7,423 bases of DNA from JAUWCW01 sp030609125 [NCBI: Candidatus Rokuibacteriota bacterium] (lineage in GTDB: Bacteria; JAUVQV01), in NCBI GenBank assembly GCA_030609125.1, contig JAUWCW010000089.1:1-7423 (forward strand). Reading direction: 5' to 3'. Below are positions 139-7,423 of this stretch, piece after piece. How positions within the stretch are numbered: the first letter of the stretch is position 1; every line of letters begins with the position of its first letter. A model generated the notes under the pieces. That model searched no databases. It saw only the letters and a list, made by a program, of their open reading frames with translations, and had not been told where the DNA came from. A program made the position numbers and the translations under genes.

Positions 139-2006
139 GTGTAGTCGTCGGTATTGATCTGGGTACGACCAATTCCTGCGTGGCCGTGATGGAAGGGGGC
201 GGTCCCGTGGTGATCGCCAACGCAGAGGGGAGCCGCACCACCCCGTCCATGGTAGCCATCACGGAGGCCGACGAGAGGCTGGTGGGACACATCGCCAAGA
301 GGCAGGCGGTCTCTAACCCGGAGAACACGGTCTTTTCGGCCAAAAGGCTCATCGGCAGGCGCTTCGACAGCGAAGAGATCCGCCGCGCCAGAGAGATGAT
401 TCCGTTCCGGATCGTGGAGGCGGAAAACGGCGACGCCTGGGTGGAGGTGCGGGGCAAGCCTTACAGCCCTGCGGAGATTCAGGCCATCGTGCTCCAGAAG
501 CTTCGGCAGACCGCCGAGGACTACCTCGGCACTGAAGTCAGGGACGCGGTCATAACCGTTCCGGCCTATTTTGACGACAGCCAGAGGCAGGCGACGAAGG
601 ACGCGGGGGGCATCGCGGGGCTGAACGTCATCCGCATCGTGAACGAGCCGACCGCCGCCGCCCTCGCCTACGGGCTTGAGAGCAAGGAGCGCAAGAAGGT
701 CGCCGTCTACGACCTGGGCGGCGGGACCTTCGATATTTCCATCCTGGAGATGGGGGGGGGTGTCTACGAGGTTCTCTCAAGCAGCGGGGACACCTTTCTC
801 GGAGGGGATGATTTCGACCATCGGGTCATCGAGCACATCGCTTCCCGGTTCCGTGACGAGCACGGCATTGACATCTCGAAGGACAAAATGGCCCTGCAGC
901 GCCTGAAAGAAGCTGTTGAGCGGGCCAAGCATGAGCTTTCCACAGTGGTTGAGACGAACATCAATCTGCCTTTTCTCACCACCGACGCCAGCGGTCCCAG
1001 GCACATGGATTACGTCTTGAGCCGGGCCAGGCTGGAGAGTCTGGTGGGAGATCTCGTGGAAGGAACCATTCCCCCTTGCCGCAAGGCCCTGGAAAGCGCG
1101 GGACTGAAGGCGAAAGATATCGGTGAAGTCATCCTCGTGGGGGGGCAGACGAGGATGCCTCTTGTTCAGGAGGCGGTGAGAAAGTTTTTCGGAAGGGAGC
1201 CGAGCAAGGGGGTCAATCCGGACGAAGTCGTAGCTGTGGGAGCGGCGATCCAGAGCGGCGTACTCACAGGCAGGGTGCGCGACGTTCTCCTGCTCGACGT
1301 GACGCCTCTTTCCCTGGGGATAGAGACCAAGGGGGGGATATTCACCCGACTCATTGAATCCAACACCAGCATCCCGTACAGGAAGAGCCAGATCTTCTCC
1401 ACCGCCACCGACAGCCAGACGTCGGTGACGATCCACGTTCTGCAGGGGGAGAGGGATATGGCGTCGGACAACAAGTCCCTGGGCCAGTTCGAGCTGATCG
1501 GAATCCTCCCCGCACCGCGAGGCGTCCCGAAGATAGAGGTGTCATTCGATATTGACGCCAACGGGATCTTCAACGTTTCCGCCAGGGACAGCGGAACAGG
1601 GCTCCAGCATGCCATCAGTATAACAGCGTCCAGCGGGCTGTCGAAGGACAAGCTGGAGAAGATGAGGGATGATGCCAGCAGCCACGCTCTGGCGGACTCC
1701 CGGAAGCGGAAGCAGGCGGAGCACCGCAACCGCGCGGAGTCTCTTCTCTACTCGGTGGAGAGGACACTGGAGGAGTACGGCGAGAAACTTTCGAAGCAGA
1801 TGCGGTTCGCCCTGCGCGACTCCTCGCAGAGAATGCGGGAGGCCATCGAGGGTGACGACCTGGAAGCGATTAGGAAAATCTCAAAGGAACTGGAAAAATC
1901 CGCCCACGCGGCAACGAAGGCCATACACTCCGCGGGAGAAAAAGGAGTGAGAGAACAAGCCTCCGAGGGTGGAGAAGGGGCTGCCGATGGCTCGTCCGAC
2001 GGCTGA
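135..2006 (+). CDS. dnaK: Chaperone protein DnaK (Hsp70)
   Basis: ATP-dependent Hsp70 chaperone, 623 aa, close to the usual length of about 610-640. The ATPase domain (about 1-382) has the phosphate-1 motif GIDLGTTNS at 6-14, Lys70, [11 protein letters not shown] at 170-180 (Glu171), phosphate-2 DLGGGTFD at 193-200 (Thr198, equivalent to the E. coli autophosphorylated Thr199) and VGGQTRMP at 335-342. Residues about 75-105 keep the insert found in Gram-negative DnaKs. The hydrophobic linker VLLLDVT is at 384-390. The substrate-binding beta domain follows (about 393-500), then the helical lid (about 501-600). The GTG start at 135 is chosen because it gives the canonical N-terminus, has AGAGGA just upstream (126-131) and overlaps the grpE stop. 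The last 20 or so residues are Gly/Ser/Glu-rich and lack the acidic EEV-type ending common in bacterial DnaKs. A nine-G run occurs at 752-760. dnaJ does not follow; a lipoprotein gene overlaps the 3' end by 20 bp. Confidence 0.97.
752..760 (+). repeat. Nine-G homopolymer inside dnaK
   Basis: Nine consecutive G bases encode part of Met-Gly-Gly-Gly-Val (residues 206-210) in a loop of the ATPase domain. The frame is intact here. Tracts of this length are prone to polymerase slippage and to sequencing error. Confidence 0.9.
1971..1980 (+). promoter_or_regulatory. Ribosome binding site that sets the lipoprotein start
   Basis: GGAGAAGGGG lies inside the dnaK coding end and stops 6 bases before the ATG at 1987. 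It favours that ATG over the in-frame GTG at 1969, which has no comparable site upstream and overlaps this purine run itself. Confidence 0.6.
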
Positions 2007-3027
2007 AGCAGGTCGTATCGGGTTCCTGGTCGTGCTTCTTGCGGCGGTGAGCCTGACGGCGGCGTGCGGCAAGAAGGCGCCTCCTTTTCTCACGGTTCCG
2101 GTCGCCGCCGGCAGCCTGAGCGTCTCGAAGGTTGTGACGAGCGGGGAGGAGGTGAGGGTGACCTTCAGGGTTCCGAGAGAGCGATTGAGCTTCGGCAAAG
2201 AGGAAGAGCCGTGGGTCCTGGCGCGGATGCTCCGCCGGCCCTCGCGTGACGGGGAAGCCGGGTTCGAGGAACGGGCCGTCATCGTGGAAGAGGAAGGCCT
2301 GGCCTTCGGCGAGTCGCTGACGCTCATCGACACGGGACTGGTTGAAGGGGAGGTCTATCTTTACCGCGTCGAGCTCAGAAAACAGGAGTCGGAAGAGTGG
2401 GCGGCGACGGATACCCTGACCGTGGAGGCGATCGCTGCCCCGGAGGCCCCGCGAGAACTTCGGGCCGAGGGAACGGAGGGAGCCGTTGTCCTCTCCTGGA
2501 GCCCTCCCGGCGGGGGCAGGGCCGGGGTGGAGTACGTCGTTTTCAAAAGAGGCGCGGAGGAGAGTGAGTCGGCGCCCGTCACTCCCGGGCCCCAGGGAAA
2601 TACCGCCTTCACCGACACACGGGTCGAAAGGGAGCGGGAGTACTGCTATCGCGTCCAGGCGATCCTGCGCTCCCTGGAAACGGAGGCCGTGGGCGGGACG
2701 ACGGATGAGGTCTGTGTGCGGGCTGAGGACAGAAGCGCTCCTCCGGGGCCGTCGGGTCTGCGCGCCGTCGCCGACAGCCGGGGAGTGGAACTCACGTGGC
2801 TGCCGGTTGCCGCGAGAGATGTGAAAGGGTACAACGTCTACCGGGCGGAAGGGGAGGGGCCTTTCCGGATAGTGAACGCATCTCCTCTGGAGGCCGCGCG
2901 GTACCGGGATGAGAAGGTGGTCTCCGGCATGCGCTACCGCTACCGCGTGACGGCCGTGGACGATTCCGAAAGGGGCAACGAGAGCCCTTTTGCCGAAGCC
3001 TCGGCGGTTACCCCTCCCGCCGAATAG
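1987..3027 (+). CDS. Lipoprotein with fibronectin type III-like domains
   Basis: Predicted secreted lipoprotein of 346 aa. The signal peptide has Arg10, a hydrophobic core at about 11-25 ([16 protein letters not shown]) and the lipobox LTAAC with the lipidated cysteine at 27. The next residues are GKKAPP, with no Asp at +2, which by the E. coli rule means outer-membrane destination. Two fibronectin-III-like modules follow, at about 152-246 and 252-344. Each has the PxxLRA entry strand, a Trp (171, 271), a YVV/YNVY strand and a YRVQA/YRVTAVD strand. Residues about 40-150 are strand-rich and end in YLYRVEL, so they may be a third, degenerate module. No catalytic motif is visible; such modules usually mediate binding or spacing in envelope proteins. 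The gene overlaps dnaK by 20 bp and its end overlaps the convergent amidohydrolase gene by 20 bp. An in-frame GTG at 1969 would add six residues before the signal peptide. The lipoprotein call is firm; the role is unknown. Confidence 0.85.
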
Positions 3028-4273
3028 CCGCTGCCTCACGGGACCTGCGGCGGTAGAGCAGGCGCCCTCCCACCACGGTCGCCGCTATCCTCGAGACGGC
3101 GCCCTGCGTCACCACGTCCTCCTCGGTGGCGGCGCTCCCCGCCGGGATTCGAAGAAGAGCGAGATCGGCGTCCCTGCCCGCCTCCAGTGATCCTGAGCCG
3201 GCGAGTCCGAGAGCTTCGGCGGCGCCCAGCGTGAGGCGGCGCAGGATGACCGAGCCGCTTTCCGGCAGGGATCGCCGCACCAGCCTGGCCTCCTCGAAGA
3301 GATCGAAATCGGGTACGCTCGCCAGGCTGTCGGTTCCGTAGACGAACCGGATGCCCGCCTTGCGCCAGCGCTGGTAGTCCGGGATGCCGCATCGCAGAAG
3401 GGCATTGCTGCGGGGGCACGTCACCATGGTGGCGCCGCTCGCGGCTATCTTCGAGAGATCTCGATCGGTGAGGTGGGTTCCGTGAAAGAGAAGTGTCTTC
3501 GTAGAGAGGAGCCCGTGCTCCTCCAGGTACCCTGCCAGGGACCCGCGGAAGGAGGGCCCGAAGGGGAGCCCCCAGCGCCGCACCTGGGGAGCCAGCGGCC
3601 CGCGGCCGCGGAGAAGGTCCTGCTCGTGGCGTGTTTCGCCGACGTGCATGCCGAGGGGAAGGGAGCGGCGCCCGGCCAGGGACCGCAGCGCGGAGAGGAC
3701 CTGGGGCGAGAGGGTGTAGATGGAATGCGGAGAGAGCCCCGGGGCGATTCGCGGTGAGAGAAACGTATCCGACGAGAGGGCCGATTCGAGGCGGGGCAAA
3801 GACTCCTCCGACGAAGATCCGGCCAGAGCGACCGCCTCCAGGTAGGCCCGCATCCGGATCCCGGCCCGCTGCGCCACCACCGGTGATGCGCCGTAGGTCA
3901 CCACGTCGCCGATTGCGGTTATCCCGGAGCGGAGGCACCTGCGAATGCCGGAGGCGGCGGCTTTCTCCCAGTGGGACGCTCCCCAGAAGCTGTCCCGGAG
4001 CCGGCTGGCCCGGACGAGCCCGCGGATCCAGGGGAGAAAGTCGGTGGGCCTGGCCATGGTGCGGAAGAGAGAGTACTCGAGGTGGGTGTGGGCGTTCACA
4101 AGCCCCGGAATAAGGACACTGTCGGGGAAGGCCAGGTGTCTTTCCTTCGGGTGGGTCCGCAGGAGTTCACCGATCGGACCGACTTCGCGGATGACGCCCC
4201 CGGTCACCCTCACACCGGCGTAAGCCGCGGAAGGGGAGGTGACGGGGAAGACCCTGGCGGCGCTGATGATCAT
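3008..4273 (-). CDS. Amidohydrolase, probable aminofutalosine deaminase (ATZ/TRZ type)
   Basis: Metal-dependent amidohydrolase of 421 aa, the usual size of the ATZ/TRZ/chlorohydrolase and adenosine-type deaminase group. Visible metal and catalytic residues are the HxH pair in NAHTHLE (His62, His64), His210 with Glu213 in MHVGE, His264 (and His267) in FHGTHL, and Asp315 in GTDS. SPHSIYT (181-187) is another conserved segment of this group. The C-terminal LEAGRDADLALL (363-374) is the typical return to the small composite beta domain. Its ATG overlaps the TGA of the upstream MTAP-like gene in ATGA (4270-4273), so the two are probably translationally coupled. With mqnE, mqnA and mqnC just upstream, the likely reaction is deamination of aminofutalosine to futalosine in menaquinone synthesis (MqnX/MqnF-like role). 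That assignment rests on context. A deaminase of S-adenosylhomocysteine, methylthioadenosine or guanine is the main alternative. The 3' end overlaps the convergent lipoprotein gene by 20 bp. Confidence 0.8.
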   Translation of the reverse strand: MIISAARVFPVTSPSAAYAGVRVTGGVIREVGPIGELLRTHPKERHLAFPDSVLIPGLVNAHTHLEYSLFRTMARPTDFLPWIRGLVRASRLRDSFWGASHWEKAAASGIRRCLRSGITAIGDVVTYGASPVVAQRAGIRMRAYLEAVALAGSSSEESLPRLESALSSDTFLSPRIAPGLSPHSIYTLSPQVLSALRSLAGRRSLPLGMHVGETRHEQDLLRGRGPLAPQVRRWGLPFGPSFRGSLAGYLEEHGLLSTKTLLFHGTHLTDRDLSKIAASGATMVTCPRSNALLRCGIPDYQRWRKAGIRFVYGTDSLASVPDFDLFEEARLVRRSLPESGSVILRRLTLGAAEALGLAGSGSLEAGRDADLALLRIPAGSAATEEDVVTQGAVSRIAATVVGGRLLYRRRSREAAAIRREG

Positions 4274-5118
4274 GGGGCGCCGGGAACGTCGGGGCCGATG
4301 AGGGTCTTCTTTCTCAAACCTCTGCAGCCGCAGGTCTCCCTGCCGGAGACGAGCGGGAGCAGGTCGAGAAGAAGATTGCCCATGAGAGAGGCGCGTTCAT
4401 GGAAAATGCTCCTCAACTCCCGGTGACTCCAGTCCTGGCCCACCCCCTCGGCCCTGTTGACCACCTGGTGGATTCCGGCGTAGCAGGCGCCGATCTCCCG
4501 GGCGAGGTAGACCTCCGGGGCCAGGCTCTGGCCGATGACGTCCGCGCCCATGGCCGCAAGAGCCCGGACCTCGGCGCGGCTCTCGAAGTGTCGTCCATCG
4601 GTGACGGCGTATACCCCACCTGTTATCAGGGCCGCATCGGGGAGACGGGAGGCGGCGGCCTCGGCGAGAGCGCCGCGCAGGTCCTTGCAGAGGGGGTCCC
4701 GCATGATAAGGAGATAATCGTCTGAGAGGGCGGTGTCGCGGCGGGCCGTCCAGTCAAGGTAGTCATCGGGAATAATGACGCTCCCCGGCGCCCAATCGGC
4801 GTGGACGGTCCCAACGCCGCCTTCGGCAATGATCTTCTCCACGCCGGCCTCTCTCAGTACCGAGAAGAGCTGCTGGGAGGCCTCCTTTCTGGTTGTTCCA
4901 GACCGCCAGCCATGCATCCGGCAGGTGAGGACGAGTTCGCCGTTTCCGAGGCGCAGCGTGTTCATGGGAGGGGAATCGCCGAAAGGTGTGGAGTAAACGA
5001 CTTCCTTGGCGTGAATCTCGACGTCTGCTCGCTGCAGGGCCTCCGGAAAATCTATCGCGTGTGTCCCGGAGCCGCCGATGAGAGCCGTTGATGCCCGAGG
5101 TATCTCTCTATGTGGCAT
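4270..5118 (-). CDS. MTAP/PNP-family nucleoside phosphorylase-like protein, probable futalosine-cleaving enzyme
   Basis: Protein of 282 aa in the trimeric MTAP/PNP family of N-ribosyl phosphorylases. Family features are LIGGSG at 13-18, TPFG at 44-47, GADVIGQSLAPEVYLARE at 191-208 (MTAPs read GADVINMT..PE..LA.E) and FESRAE at 178-183. In my hand alignment Asn221 (in HQVVNRAEG) falls on human MTAP Asp220 and human PNP Asn243. Asn there selects 6-oxopurines such as hypoxanthine. The phosphate-site motif ARHG is changed to CRMHG (66-70) and the usual NYxAN segment is lost, so phosphorolysis is not assured. The C-terminus has an extension containing CGC (263-265). It sits between mqnC and a coupled deaminase-like gene. 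I infer that it removes hypoxanthine from futalosine in place of MqnB. A methylthioinosine or methylthioadenosine phosphorylase is the alternative. The ATG at 5118 puts the nucleotide loop at the usual distance but has no clear Shine-Dalgarno site. Confidence 0.82.
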   Translation of the reverse strand: MPHREIPRASTALIGGSGTHAIDFPEALQRADVEIHAKEVVYSTPFGDSPPMNTLRLGNGELVLTCRMHGWRSGTTRKEASQQLFSVLREAGVEKIIAEGGVGTVHADWAPGSVIIPDDYLDWTARRDTALSDDYLLIMRDPLCKDLRGALAEAAASRLPDAALITGGVYAVTDGRHFESRAEVRALAAMGADVIGQSLAPEVYLAREIGACYAGIHQVVNRAEGVGQDWSHRELRSIFHERASLMGNLLLDLLPLVSGRETCGCRGLRKKTLIGPDVPGAP

Positions 5119-5167: not shown

Positions 5168-5180
5168 TATACATTGTATA
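5168..5180. repeat. Short palindrome TATACA-T-TGTATA over the promoter -10 region
   Basis: A perfect 6-bp inverted repeat with a single-base centre. It overlaps the candidate -10 box and start region, a typical place for a repressor operator. Short AT palindromes also arise by chance in AT-rich DNA. Confidence 0.4.
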
Positions 5181-5202
5181 GTATAAAGTGTCATGTTGAC
5201 AA
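5173..5202 (-). promoter_or_regulatory. Candidate sigma-70-type promoter for the MTAP-like/deaminase pair
   Basis: Read on the minus strand, TTGTCA (5202-5197) could be a -35 box, one mismatch from TTGACA. After 16 bases comes TATACA (5180-5175), or after 18 bases TACAAT (5178-5173), as the -10 box. Transcription would begin near 5165-5168, leaving a leader of about 50 nt before the ATG at 5118. It lies in the AT-rich core. No start-site data exist, so this is a pattern match only. Confidence 0.45.
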
Positions 5203-5283: not shown

Positions 5284-6381
5284 TCACTCTGCTTTTCCAC
5301 AGACTTCAAGGATGTGGAAAAGTGTGTCGCGCCGGGCGCAGCCGTTGCCGGAGGAAACGATGAGGTTCACCATCTCCTCCTTCTCAAGGTGATGTGAAGT
5401 GCCGGCGGCCCTGACGACGTTTTCCTCCAGCATGATGCTTCCGAGGTCGTTGGCTCCGAATTCCAGGGAAAGCTGACCGATTTCCGGTCCCTGTGTGACC
5501 CACGAGCCCTGAACAGTGCGGATGTTGTCGAGGAAAAGACGGGCGAGGGCGAGGGTGCGCAGGTAGTCGAAGGTGGTGGCGCCGCCCGTGGCCAGTTCCG
5601 TGTTGGCGGGCTGAAAGGTCCAGGGGATAAAGGAGATGAACCCGGACGTTTTGTCCTGGAGCGCCCTGATCCTTGCGAGATGGTCAAGGCGGTCCTCCGC
5701 CGCTTCGCCGGCGCCGAACATCATCGTCGCCGTTGTCGGCAGTCCCAGCCGGTGGGCGTCTTCCATAACGGAGAGCCACTGCCGGGTGAGGATCTTGCGG
5801 GGGCTGATGCGGCGGCGAACGTGATCGGCGAGAATCTCCGCGCCGCCGCCGGGGAGCGAATCGAGACCCGCGTCCATGAGGCGGCGCAGAACCTCCGGAA
5901 CGGGACAGCCGGCCGCGGTTGAGAGGAAGTGGATTTCCGGGGGCGAGAGGCTGTGAAGGTGAACGGGGCAGCGCTTCTTGATGCGGCTGAAGAGCTCGAG
6001 GAACCAGTCGAGCCCGATCTCCGGGTGGATCCCGCCCTGGAGCATGACCTGTGTCGCGCCGCCGGCGACTGCCTCCCGCACGCGGGTTTCTATCTCATCG
6101 TGGCTCAGCAGGAAGGCTTCGGGACTCTGCGCGTCGCGATAGAAGGCGCAGAAGCGGCAGCGGTTGAGGCAGACGTTGGTGTAGTTGATGTTCCTGTCGA
6201 TCAGGAAGGTCACCGGCTCGTCGCCGTGAATCGCCCGGCGGCGGGCCAGCGCCGCCATGCCCATGTCGAGAAGGTCCGCTTCGCGGTAAATGCGCAGCGC
6301 CTCATCCCGGCTGATGCGGTCGCCCCGGGCGGCGCGGTCGAGAATGCCGCGGGTGGTGTCGCTGCGAGGTTCGCTGTTCAC
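5284..6381 (-). CDS. mqnC: Cyclic dehypoxanthine futalosine synthase (radical SAM)
   Basis: Radical SAM enzyme of 365 aa that cyclises dehypoxanthine futalosine to cyclic DHFL in the futalosine pathway of menaquinone synthesis. The [4Fe-4S]-binding CX3CX2C is C71-L-N-R-C75-R-F-C78, inside DRNINYTNVCLNRCRFCAFYR (62-82; central part typical of MqnC). MLQGGIHPEIGLDW (113-126), LDSLPGGGAEIL (173-184), RRISPRK (190-196) and the C-terminal LEFGANDLGSIMLEENVV (306-323) also fit MqnC rather than MqnE. The GTG at 6381 is chosen because it overlaps the mqnA stop in GTGA (6378-6381) and keeps the conserved N-terminal helix (SRDEALRIYREADLL). A possible G-rich ribosome site lies about 11 bases upstream. 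The open frame continues far upstream to 6981, but that part is the out-of-frame shadow of mqnA. A 10-bp inverted repeat sits just before the stop. Confidence 0.94.
   Translation of the reverse strand: MNSEPRSDTTRGILDRAARGDRISRDEALRIYREADLLDMGMAALARRRAIHGDEPVTFLIDRNINYTNVCLNRCRFCAFYRDAQSPEAFLLSHDEIETRVREAVAGGATQVMLQGGIHPEIGLDWFLELFSRIKKRCPVHLHSLSPPEIHFLSTAAGCPVPEVLRRLMDAGLDSLPGGGAEILADHVRRRISPRKILTRQWLSVMEDAHRLGLPTTATMMFGAGEAAEDRLDHLARIRALQDKTSGFISFIPWTFQPANTELATGGATTFDYLRTLALARLFLDNIRTVQGSWVTQGPEIGQLSLEFGANDLGSIMLEENVVRAAGTSHHLEKEEMVNLIVSSGNGCARRDTLFHILEVCGKAE
5292..5322. repeat. Perfect 10-bp inverted repeat at the 3' end of mqnC
   Basis: CTTTTCCACA (5292-5301) and TGTGGAAAAG (5313-5322) are exact reverse complements separated by 11 bases. 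In mqnC mRNA they would form a hairpin ending a few codons before the stop. No T-run follows on either strand, so it is not a standard intrinsic terminator. Confidence 0.7.
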
Positions 6382-7241
6382 GGTCTCAGCGGTCCCCCCG
6401 CGAGATGTCCCGCGCCGACGGGGGAGAAAAAATCCAGGGGCGGTACTGTTTCCAGCTCTTCGAGCTCCGCGGCTTCGCGATAAAAGCGCAGGAGTCCCTC
6501 CTGCAGCTTCTTGTCGAAATCGAAGGAGAGAGAGCGAAAATACTGCAGGAGAAAGTCCGCCGGGAAACGCTCCCAGCGGGCGGCATCGACGGCGATGGCA
6601 TCGAGATTGGAACGGCAGAAGTCTATGGACTCCTGGAAGAGCCGCCAGGCGTGCTCGACGACGCCGGGGTGTGAATCCGCAAAGCTTCGCCGCGCCGCCC
6701 AGACGGCGAAGACCATCCCCTCGCCGGCATAATTCCACCACTCCGTGCCGAGGTCGTAGACGTGCAGGCCCGGCGCCGGGTTCAGGTGCTCCAGGGCCCG
6801 GTCGCCTATGAGCAGCGCCGCCATGCCCCGGTCCAGCGCCTCGGAGAGGCTGTCGCCGAAGGCAAAGTACCGGGGCCGGATTCCGTGGTGCCGCTCGAGA
6901 ATTATCCGGAGCAGGACGTGGGACGTTGCGGAGGTGCCCGTCAACCCGACGGGCCGGCCGTGGAGCTCCTGCAGGGGGCATCTGCTGACGAGCAGGATGC
7001 TCCGCACCGGCCCGCGGCAGCTCACCGTCGGCCCGGGAAGGAGGATGAACTCTTGCGGGTTCCGGCCGTACTCGATGGAGGAGACGGGGCTGATGTCCAG
7101 GCGCCCTTCGAGAAGGAGCGAATTGAGCTCTGTCGGCGTCCCTTTGACGAGATCGAGGTCAAGAATTCCGTTCCCGTTGACGAGGCCGTAATAGATGGGC
7201 AGGCAGTTGAGAAACTGTATATGTCCAGTCCTGGGGCGCAT
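6378..7241 (-). CDS. mqnA: Chorismate dehydratase MqnA
   Basis: Protein of 287 aa that dehydrates chorismate to 3-[(1-carboxyvinyl)oxy]benzoate, the first step of the futalosine pathway. It has the periplasmic-binding-protein-like fold of the MqnA/MqnD family. Visible family features are HIQFLNCLPIYYGL at 7-20, GTPTELNSLLLEGRLDISPVSS (first 20 at 34-53, Ser54-Ser55 after), VGLTGTSATSHVLLRIIL at 98-115, and LLIGDRAL at 143-150. LNCLP and the ISPVSS segment separate it from MqnD. The ATG at 7241 is chosen because MqnA proteins start a few residues before the I-x-[FY]-LN strand. An in-frame GTG at 7277 would add 12 residues and begin only 3 bases after the mqnE stop. Neither start has a strong ribosome site. 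It sits between mqnE and mqnC, with a 4-base overlap to mqnC, so the three form an operon. Confidence 0.94.
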   Translation of the reverse strand: MRPRTGHIQFLNCLPIYYGLVNGNGILDLDLVKGTPTELNSLLLEGRLDISPVSSIEYGRNPQEFILLPGPTVSCRGPVRSILLVSRCPLQELHGRPVGLTGTSATSHVLLRIILERHHGIRPRYFAFGDSLSEALDRGMAALLIGDRALEHLNPAPGLHVYDLGTEWWNYAGEGMVFAVWAARRSFADSHPGVVEHAWRLFQESIDFCRSNLDAIAVDAARWERFPADFLLQYFRSLSFDFDKKLQEGLLRFYREAAELEELETVPPLDFFSPVGAGHLAGGPLRP

Positions 7242-7280
7242 GGCGGCTATCCCGGAAGATGTTCGGGCGAAGAGCACATG

Positions 7281-7423
7281 TCAGCTTGGGAGCGACACGA
7301 GGTCGCTGTCGGCATGGTGCTCGTTGAGGTGGCGGTAGAGGGTGTCGCGCTCGACGGGAACATAGCCTGCCTCGCGGATCAGCGCCAGCAGCTCTTCGCG
7401 GGAGATGTACTGCCCCGTCGTTG
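7281..7423 (-). CDS. mqnE: Aminodeoxyfutalosine synthase MqnE, C-terminal end (partial)
   Basis: Only the last 46 codons and a TGA stop are in the window; the gene continues past the right edge. The readable end, TTGQYISREELLALIREAG (19 residues) followed by YVPVERDTLYRHL, matches the C-terminal segment of the MqnE radical SAM family (helix with LIREAG, then PVERDTLY). MqnE joins the MqnA product to SAM-derived adenosyl to give aminofutalosine. The position directly upstream of mqnA supports the call. The CX3CX2C cluster site is outside the window, so the assignment rests on this tail and on context. MqnC-type proteins do not end this way. The spacing to mqnA is 39 bases, or 3 if the GTG at 7277 is used. 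Confidence 0.82.
   Translation of the reverse strand, partial: TTGQYISREELLALIREAGYVPVERDTLYRHLNEHHADSDLVSLPS

Follow-up and report, generated by a model that had tools for sequence, protein, structure and literature searches.

The bacterium JAUWCW01 sp030609125 (Candidatus Rokuibacteriota; assembly GCA_030609125.1) appears to make menaquinone (vitamin K2) by the futalosine route without two of the usual enzymes. The window analysed here is a stretch of 7,423 nucleotides, the whole of contig JAUWCW010000089.1 (C152). Its minus strand reads, 5' to 3', the end of mqnE, mqnA, mqnC, the gene of an MTAP-like protein (MqnZ) and a deaminase gene. We found no homologue of MqnB, MTAN or MqnD in the genome. 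MqnZ presents the MTAP/PNP fold and a purine pocket invariant among its relatives, and its gene recurs with mqnC. The deaminase and MqnZ probably perform together the purine removal of the pathway in place of MqnB or MTAN. The deaminase would convert aminofutalosine, the product of MqnE, to futalosine. MqnZ would then release hypoxanthine from futalosine, leaving dehypoxanthine futalosine (DHFL) or DHFL 1-phosphate for MqnC. The MqnD step would be left to another activity, possibly MqnZ itself. The substrates, the step order and the mode of cleavage (phosphorolysis or hydrolysis) are what we infer. Cleavage of futalosine is the single role that suits MqnZ best, given its fold and invariant purine pocket, its deaminase partner and the missing MqnB and MTAN.

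The mqnE fragment (7281..7421; 46 codons and the stop) is cut by the contig end. Its peptide resembles the C-terminus of MqnE (..VERDTLY..) in genome G087, from a different phylum. The mqnA gene, encoding chorismate dehydratase, lies at 6378..7277 (start GTG 7277 or ATG 7241, stop 6378) and matches PF02621 with 232.6 bits. Its best PDB matches (E 2.1e-58) are 2nxo (SCO4506) and then chorismate dehydratases including 7ahr. The match to 2czl (TTHA1568), which we take to be MqnD, reaches only E 2e-7. The mqnC gene for the radical SAM DHFL cyclase occupies 5284..6381 from GTG 6381 (TIGR03699, 472 bits, cut-off 428.1), and GTGA is common to its start and the mqnA stop. The mqnZ gene (4270..5118, 282 amino acids; PF01048, 105 bits) and the gene for the amidohydrolase-family deaminase (3008..4273, 421 amino acids; PF01979) overlap by ATGA (4273-4270).

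An earlier note on this DNA, made from the sequence alone, had described the three mqn genes on one strand and the ATGA overlap of the pair. Both are confirmed. It had also placed the pair next to mqnC. The pair does lie downstream on the same strand, but a 165-base gap with a promoter-like match separates mqnC from mqnZ, so they are not directly joined. The match is sigma-70-like (TTGTCA-18-TACAAT, 5173..5202, minus strand, 10/12) and is weak evidence, with one found in the gap against 0.4 expected. The order mqnE-mqnA-mqnC-mqnZ-deaminase is also present in G087, whose MTAP-like protein is 47% identical, and in G277. The latter shares the genus code of G087 and is therefore not independent. 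The order is not due to chance, because these genomes repeat it and mqnC lies upstream in 65 of 80 related loci.

The genome has 2.3 Mb in 376 contigs (92% complete, 2% contamination), and the collection holds one further genome of the same phylum. PF01048 covers MTAN, MTAP and PNP. It also includes MqnB, according to PMC3914697. The search of the genome with this family (E 0.001) gave two proteins, MqnZ and C153:1251-2219. The second is a true MTAP (317 bits, cut-off 274.85), so methylthioadenosine is provided for. Neither MqnB nor MTAN was found by this search in the 92% complete genome. The true MTAP is thus all that turned up among mqnB, mtnN and MTAP paralogues, and the earlier proposal of an MqnB replacement survives this check. 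PF02621 covers MqnA and MqnD, according to the same paper. At E 1e-8 this family gave one protein, the MqnA of the window. MqnD, sought in this way in the same incomplete genome, was not found and seems missing too. The earlier note had seen only one open step, but the enzyme for purine removal is not the only one that the set lacks.

MqnZ scores under all NCBIfam cut-offs of its superfamily. The best model is TIGR01694 (MTAP), with 109.7 of 274.85 bits, and the MTIP model PRK09136 gives 97.2 bits (cut-off 223). The MqnB (TIGR03664) and MTAN models of NCBIfam gave no match at E 0.001. An AlphaFold2 model of MqnZ, built with 46 of the 82 sequences described below, has a predicted local distance difference test score (pLDDT) of 88.4. 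Its best structural match is the MTAP 4glf (Z 29.8, root-mean-square deviation 2.7 over 265 residues). The MTIP 3ozb follows with Z 27.1.

We aligned 82 members, from 80 loci, the window and G087. The contig scan that supplied the loci relied on two peptide patterns, so conservation inside these patterns is biased; 28/82 members without the first pattern still show [RK]MHGW. Ser17, Met68, His69, Gly70, Trp71, Arg77, Gly100, Gly101, Glu179, Gln197, Asn221, Trp230, Cys263, Cys265 and Arg269 are invariant in 82/82. The motif residues of the window protein are Ser17, Arg67-Met68-His69, Glu99-Gly100-Gly101, Glu179, Gln197-Ser198, Asn221, Trp230 and Arg269. Glu179 and Asn221 align with the Glu and Asn of the E. 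coli PNP-family protein XapA, presumably the base-binding residues of the PNP pocket. Asn221 also aligns with the Asn of M. tuberculosis PNP. MqnZ thus carries the PNP-type (6-oxopurine) base-recognition residues. The MTAPs of the set have Ser and Asp at these positions, which we take to be human residues 178 and 220, and MqnZ lacks this adenine pocket. Judged by its residues, the pocket bears the 6-oxopurine signature, as in futalosine, and fits an upstream deaminase. Glu and Asn also occur in the MTIP types of the set, so the pocket indicates a 6-oxopurine nucleoside and not futalosine in particular. Its retention argues for a purine-bearing substrate.

In what we take to be the phosphate site, Ser17 and His69 are present in 82/82 members and Ser198 in 80/82, the other two having Thr. 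Lys takes the place of Arg67 in 40/82. The Ser/Thr position of MTAP, presumably phosphate-binding, is Gly100 in MqnZ, and the adjacent acid Glu99 is new (81 Glu, 1 Asp of 82). The site, read from these residues, gives no clear answer on phosphorolysis versus hydrolysis. We withdrew the argument that a lost phosphate-binding arginine would prove a hydrolase, since the Arg67-x-His69 spacing equals that of the XapA Arg-Gly-His (by eye).

The deaminase has 12 PDB hits at E 1e-12. The closest solved structure is DR_0824 (2imr, 9.8e-29). The hits also include 4m51 and 3v7p, presumably Nis0429, and 7lkj, named 'Aminofutalosine deaminase' (6.8e-17). DR_0824 and Nis0429 are reportedly tested aminofutalosine deaminases (Goble 2013). 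His62, His64, His210, Glu213, His264 and Asp315, to which we assign the metal and catalytic roles of amidohydrolases, are common to the G087 deaminase, and most of them align with DR_0824. No second copy of the deaminase was found in the genome (E 0.001). Its assignment as an aminofutalosine deaminase is likely, and only likely, because it scores below the cut-off of that family.

The scan of named genome contigs gave 126 relatives of MqnZ, and we retained the best 80. The loci were picked by the MTAP-like protein alone. They belong to Thermodesulfovibrionales, Nitrospira, Sporomusa, Selenomonas, Mitsuokella, Pectinatus, Syntrophomonas, Desulfallas, Hydrogenibacillus, Thermoflavimicrobium, Aquicultor and other Actinomycetota. 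A same-strand mqnC lies upstream in 65/80 loci, at 300 bases or less in 59. Fifteen loci are without mqnC, and several of them end early at contig ends. Eleven genomes of such loci were checked with PF02621, and 11/11 carry at least one gene of this family. The compact loci contain ubiD, ubiA, a ubiX-like gene (by eye), mqnE, mqnA, mqnC and mqnZ. They show no recurrent candidate for the missing MqnD step. The ubiA or ubiD gene is present in 13/80 loci, and a menG/ubiE-like gene (named by eye) follows in L012, L014, L015 and L027. A deaminase of the window kind (at least 100 bits) follows in nine loci (L020, L021, L028, L029, L040, L054, L062, L068 and L070), and likewise in G087 and G277.

In the loci of Selenomonas and relatives (29/80; L022, L030, L033, L042, L048 and others), mqnC is preceded by two MqnE-like radical SAM genes, and mqnA is absent from the locus. 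In the Selenomonas ruminantium group, a deaminase-like gene after mqnZ (70-78 bits to the window deaminase) was not counted, as the two examples examined are near guanine deaminase. These two genes (L069:8949-10286 and L078:8952-10283) reach 374.9 and 372.7 bits, with a guanine deaminase cut-off of 375.4. Perhaps they stand beside mqnZ by a purine-salvage association.

A second lineage appeared in a profile search of 386 genomes. At E 1e-30, 45 genomes match, and weaker members may be missed. Lineage I, that of the window, is present in G000, G087 and G277. Lineage II is present in 16 genomes (G006, G154, G343, G011, G159, G348, G025, G172, G360, G064, G093, G410, G265, G370, G385 and G255), with motifs near [SP]RHG, W[ST]GPG, GPRLE[TS] and TNxAEG. 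The remaining 26/45 carry MTAP or MTIP types only (15 by motif, 11 mainly by BLAST score). Lineage I (30 proteins) forms one clade with support 100 and a long stem, apart from the MTIP types, in a quick tree of 60 proteins. Lineage II (12) forms another with support 98. The tree does not settle the relation between the two. Among 12 lineage II loci, mqnC adjoins the gene in four (L137, L138, L139 and, across an 850-base gap, L136), and a deaminase neighbours it in three (L123, L129 with a 4-base overlap, and L141). Five have neither in the available stretch (L114, L116, L121, L128 and L142).

MqnC is over its cut-off in 129/386 genomes. The sample includes related species, and all P values are indicative. 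Every lineage I or II genome has MqnC (19/19), against 9/26 of the MTAP/MTIP-only genomes (Fisher P 4e-6, kinship not corrected). MqnB is over its cut-off in 25/386 genomes (G113 by summed pieces), 22 of them within the 129. None of the 19 lineage I or II genomes of the sample has MqnB (0/19), also at the looser E 1e-25; the probability of no overlap is 0.02, with genomes not independent. In the 50 genomes of the 80 named-record loci, no single-domain MqnB match is over the cut-off. The MqnB flag of G235 was not counted, being the sum of three weak domains in one frame. This genome, a Selenomonadaceae metagenome-assembled genome that holds L046, presents at G235:C41:40427-42973 three PNP/UDP-phosphorylase-type domains in one open frame of 967 residues. 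Each domain weakly matches the futalosine hydrolase model. From the co-occurrence suggested in the earlier note, the association with mqnC and the absence of MqnB over its cut-off hold, but the adjacent deaminase is not a general partner.

The second count concerns PF02621, which cannot tell MqnA from MqnD. It covered 80 genomes, without G255 and with 15 of the 25 MqnB genomes. Exactly one match is present in 18/18 lineage I or II genomes, against at least two in 15/15 MqnB genomes. The 42 lineage I named-record genomes show exactly one in 37 cases and one gene in two pieces in two (G212 and G219). Two matches are present in G220, with a weak second, and in G225. G234 has none. Five MqnC genomes with neither MqnB nor lineage I or II have 2, 1, 3, 2 and 2 matches. 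In three of these five the second genes reach only 37-54 bits and the family does not discriminate, so the search could miss a divergent MqnD. Counted by hand per family code, a single match is present in 10/10 lineage I or II families versus 0/14 MqnB families (P 5e-7). G043, with the family code of G370, has MqnC and a single PF02621 gene, with no MqnB match (E 1e-25) and no lineage I or II match (E 1e-30). It possibly holds a lineage member below threshold.

These counts bear on how far MqnZ replaces MqnB. The earlier reading stands in that no MqnB or MTAN was found, the pocket is of the 6-oxopurine type and DR_0824 is the nearest solved structure to the deaminase. It leaves the absence of MqnD unexplained. 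A plain substitution of MqnB has a hole one step later, and since mqnD is absent from both lineages in our counts, either the MqnD step falls to another enzyme or MqnZ alters the end of the pathway. In the second case MqnZ would cover the roles of both MqnB and MqnD. MqnC would cyclise the nucleoside before purine removal (or the order would otherwise be changed), and cleavage of the cyclic nucleoside by MqnZ would lead to 1,4-dihydroxy-6-naphthoate, with MqnD unneeded. The absence of MqnB indeed coincides with that of a second PF02621 gene (one match in 18/18, and in 37/42 or 39 with the two split genes, against two or more in 15/15 MqnB genomes), and no gene recurs in the compact loci that could be assigned to the missing step. 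Lineage I also has the acid Glu99 and Gln197 (82/82) where MTAP, MTIP and PNP types have other residues and Met. However, we know of no precedent for isomerase/retro-aldol chemistry in the PNP/MTAP fold, and lineage II is without Glu99 and Gln197 yet also has a single PF02621 gene. Nor do the MqnC sequences show clear signs of a changed substrate. No position separates the MqnC of lineage II (15) from that of MqnB genomes (20), and the MqnC of lineage I (68) differs from the latter at 11 positions, most of them conservative, with ancestry as a confounder. We regard such a double role as unlikely. The wider claim of a third late futalosine branch is doubtful. It would have one MTAP-fold enzyme, in two lineages, replace MqnB and MqnD in many bacterial families, with purine removal tied to or after the MqnC cyclisation and release of 1,4-dihydroxy-6-naphthoate. 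A phosphorolytic bypass of MqnD (DHFL 1-phosphate, MqnC, then MtnA and an aldolase, like the dihydroxyacetone phosphate (DHAP) shunt) was dropped as a general rule. Under this bypass MtnA should be present in all these genomes, and it fails generally because PF01008 was not found in several. At E 1e-20, MtnA (PF01008) was not found in the genome of the window, nor in 7/42 lineage I named-record genomes. It was found in 15/15 lineage II genomes, G087, G277 and 13/15 MqnB genomes. None of the conserved neighbours, inspected by eye, stood out as a recurrent isomerase or aldolase. An MtnA/aldolase bypass in lineage II alone would still be allowed.

The pair could also have no pathway role and clear 5'-deoxyadenosine, the by-product of MqnC, or methylthioadenosine, like the deaminase and MTIP pairs known elsewhere. 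Deaminase-family genes do adjoin MTIP-like genes in genomes without MqnC over the cut-off (L119, L120, L125 and L135), and a review (PMC6302742) describes a 5'-deoxyadenosine deaminase together with MtiP for Methanocaldococcus jannaschii. But clearance does not account for why precisely these genomes lack MqnB and a second PF02621 gene. Genomes with MqnB also run MqnC and would need clearance too, the genome of the window already has a true MTAP, and lineage I is a distinct clade away from the MTIP types. We therefore hold this quite improbable. The replacement of MqnD only, as proposed by Ravcheev and Thiele in 2016, with MTAN or MTAP removing the purine, is the least probable, indeed very unlikely. 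It draws on the co-localisation and mqnD absence reported in PMC4746308, and our wider count agrees on the absence. Against it, the purine pocket is invariant in 82/82 members and needless for a purine-free cyclic DHFL, and MTAN was not found in the genome of the window. PMC4746308 also states that sequence analysis added no support.

Several further observations weigh against futalosine cleavage by the deaminase and MqnZ. At 92% completeness the genome may still have an unassembled mqnB or mqnD, and its true MTAP could in principle act on aminofutalosine and supply the purine removal. The MqnB model is matched at E 0.001 by 18/50 named-record genomes, the best with 107.2 of 124.7 bits (G209, Hydrogenibacillus), and some of these sub-cut-off matches could be real. 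The deaminase adjoins mqnZ in only 9/80 loci, the other genomes not having been searched for theirs. The window deaminase has 142.2 bits against the aminofutalosine deaminase family (NF006269, cut-off 320). 4dzh matches it nearly as well (9.9e-28) as DR_0824, and 4dyk, 4gbd, 3lnp and 4f0r (MTA/SAH deaminase) match it better than 7lkj.

The plus strand of the window carries other genes. Within 3-2006, a GrpE-like gene (named by eye) ends and dnaK with a GTG start (PF00012) follows. A gene at 1969-3027 encodes a putative lipoprotein that has homology to fibronectin type III (PF00041). It is convergent with the deaminase gene, and their coding ends overlap by 20 bases (3008-3027).

Genomes of this type may lack two pathway enzymes at once, and would then be called menaquinone-deficient by any annotation that demands MqnB or MqnD. 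Should MqnZ carry out both steps, its chemistry would be new to the purine nucleoside phosphorylase fold. Our literature search gave no paper on 'futalosine phosphorylase', none joining 'MTAP family' and 'menaquinone', and no printed test of the MqnD annotation of mqnZ. That annotation is ten years old, and a futalosine-cleaving role can now be tested directly against an MqnD-replacing one.

The MqnZ/deaminase system appears to be a variant of the known futalosine pathway that recurs in many bacteria. The family was already named mqnZ in 12 genomes by Ravcheev and Thiele, with a proposed replacement of MqnD (PMC4746308), which the earlier note missed. Theirs is the same gene, a PF01048 protein beside mqnC or mqnE and not with mqnD. 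The window likewise has a PF01048 protein beside mqnC, in a genome where mqnD was not found. Three of the 2016 strains are among our loci, Mitsuokella multacida DSM 20544 (L059), Selenomonas flueggei ATCC 43531 (L041) and S. noxia ATCC 43541 (L045). The role we favour agrees with the earlier note and disagrees with the 2016 proposal, whose mqnD absence holds in our counts and extends to both lineages. To that work we add the purine-nucleoside pocket, the lack of MqnB, the wider spread, the deaminase partner in some genomes and the second lineage. MqnZ is like MTAP (TIGR01694) and MTIP (PRK09136) in fold and clear homology. It differs from them in scoring below their cut-offs, in its separate clade and in the replaced MTAP base residues. 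MqnB, also in PF01048, and MTAN share the proposed role; unlike them, MqnZ has MTAPs and PNPs as its relatives. The deaminase has DR_0824, 3v7p/4m51 and 7lkj among its solved relatives and carries metal-site residues, although it stands apart from the aminofutalosine deaminase family by its score.

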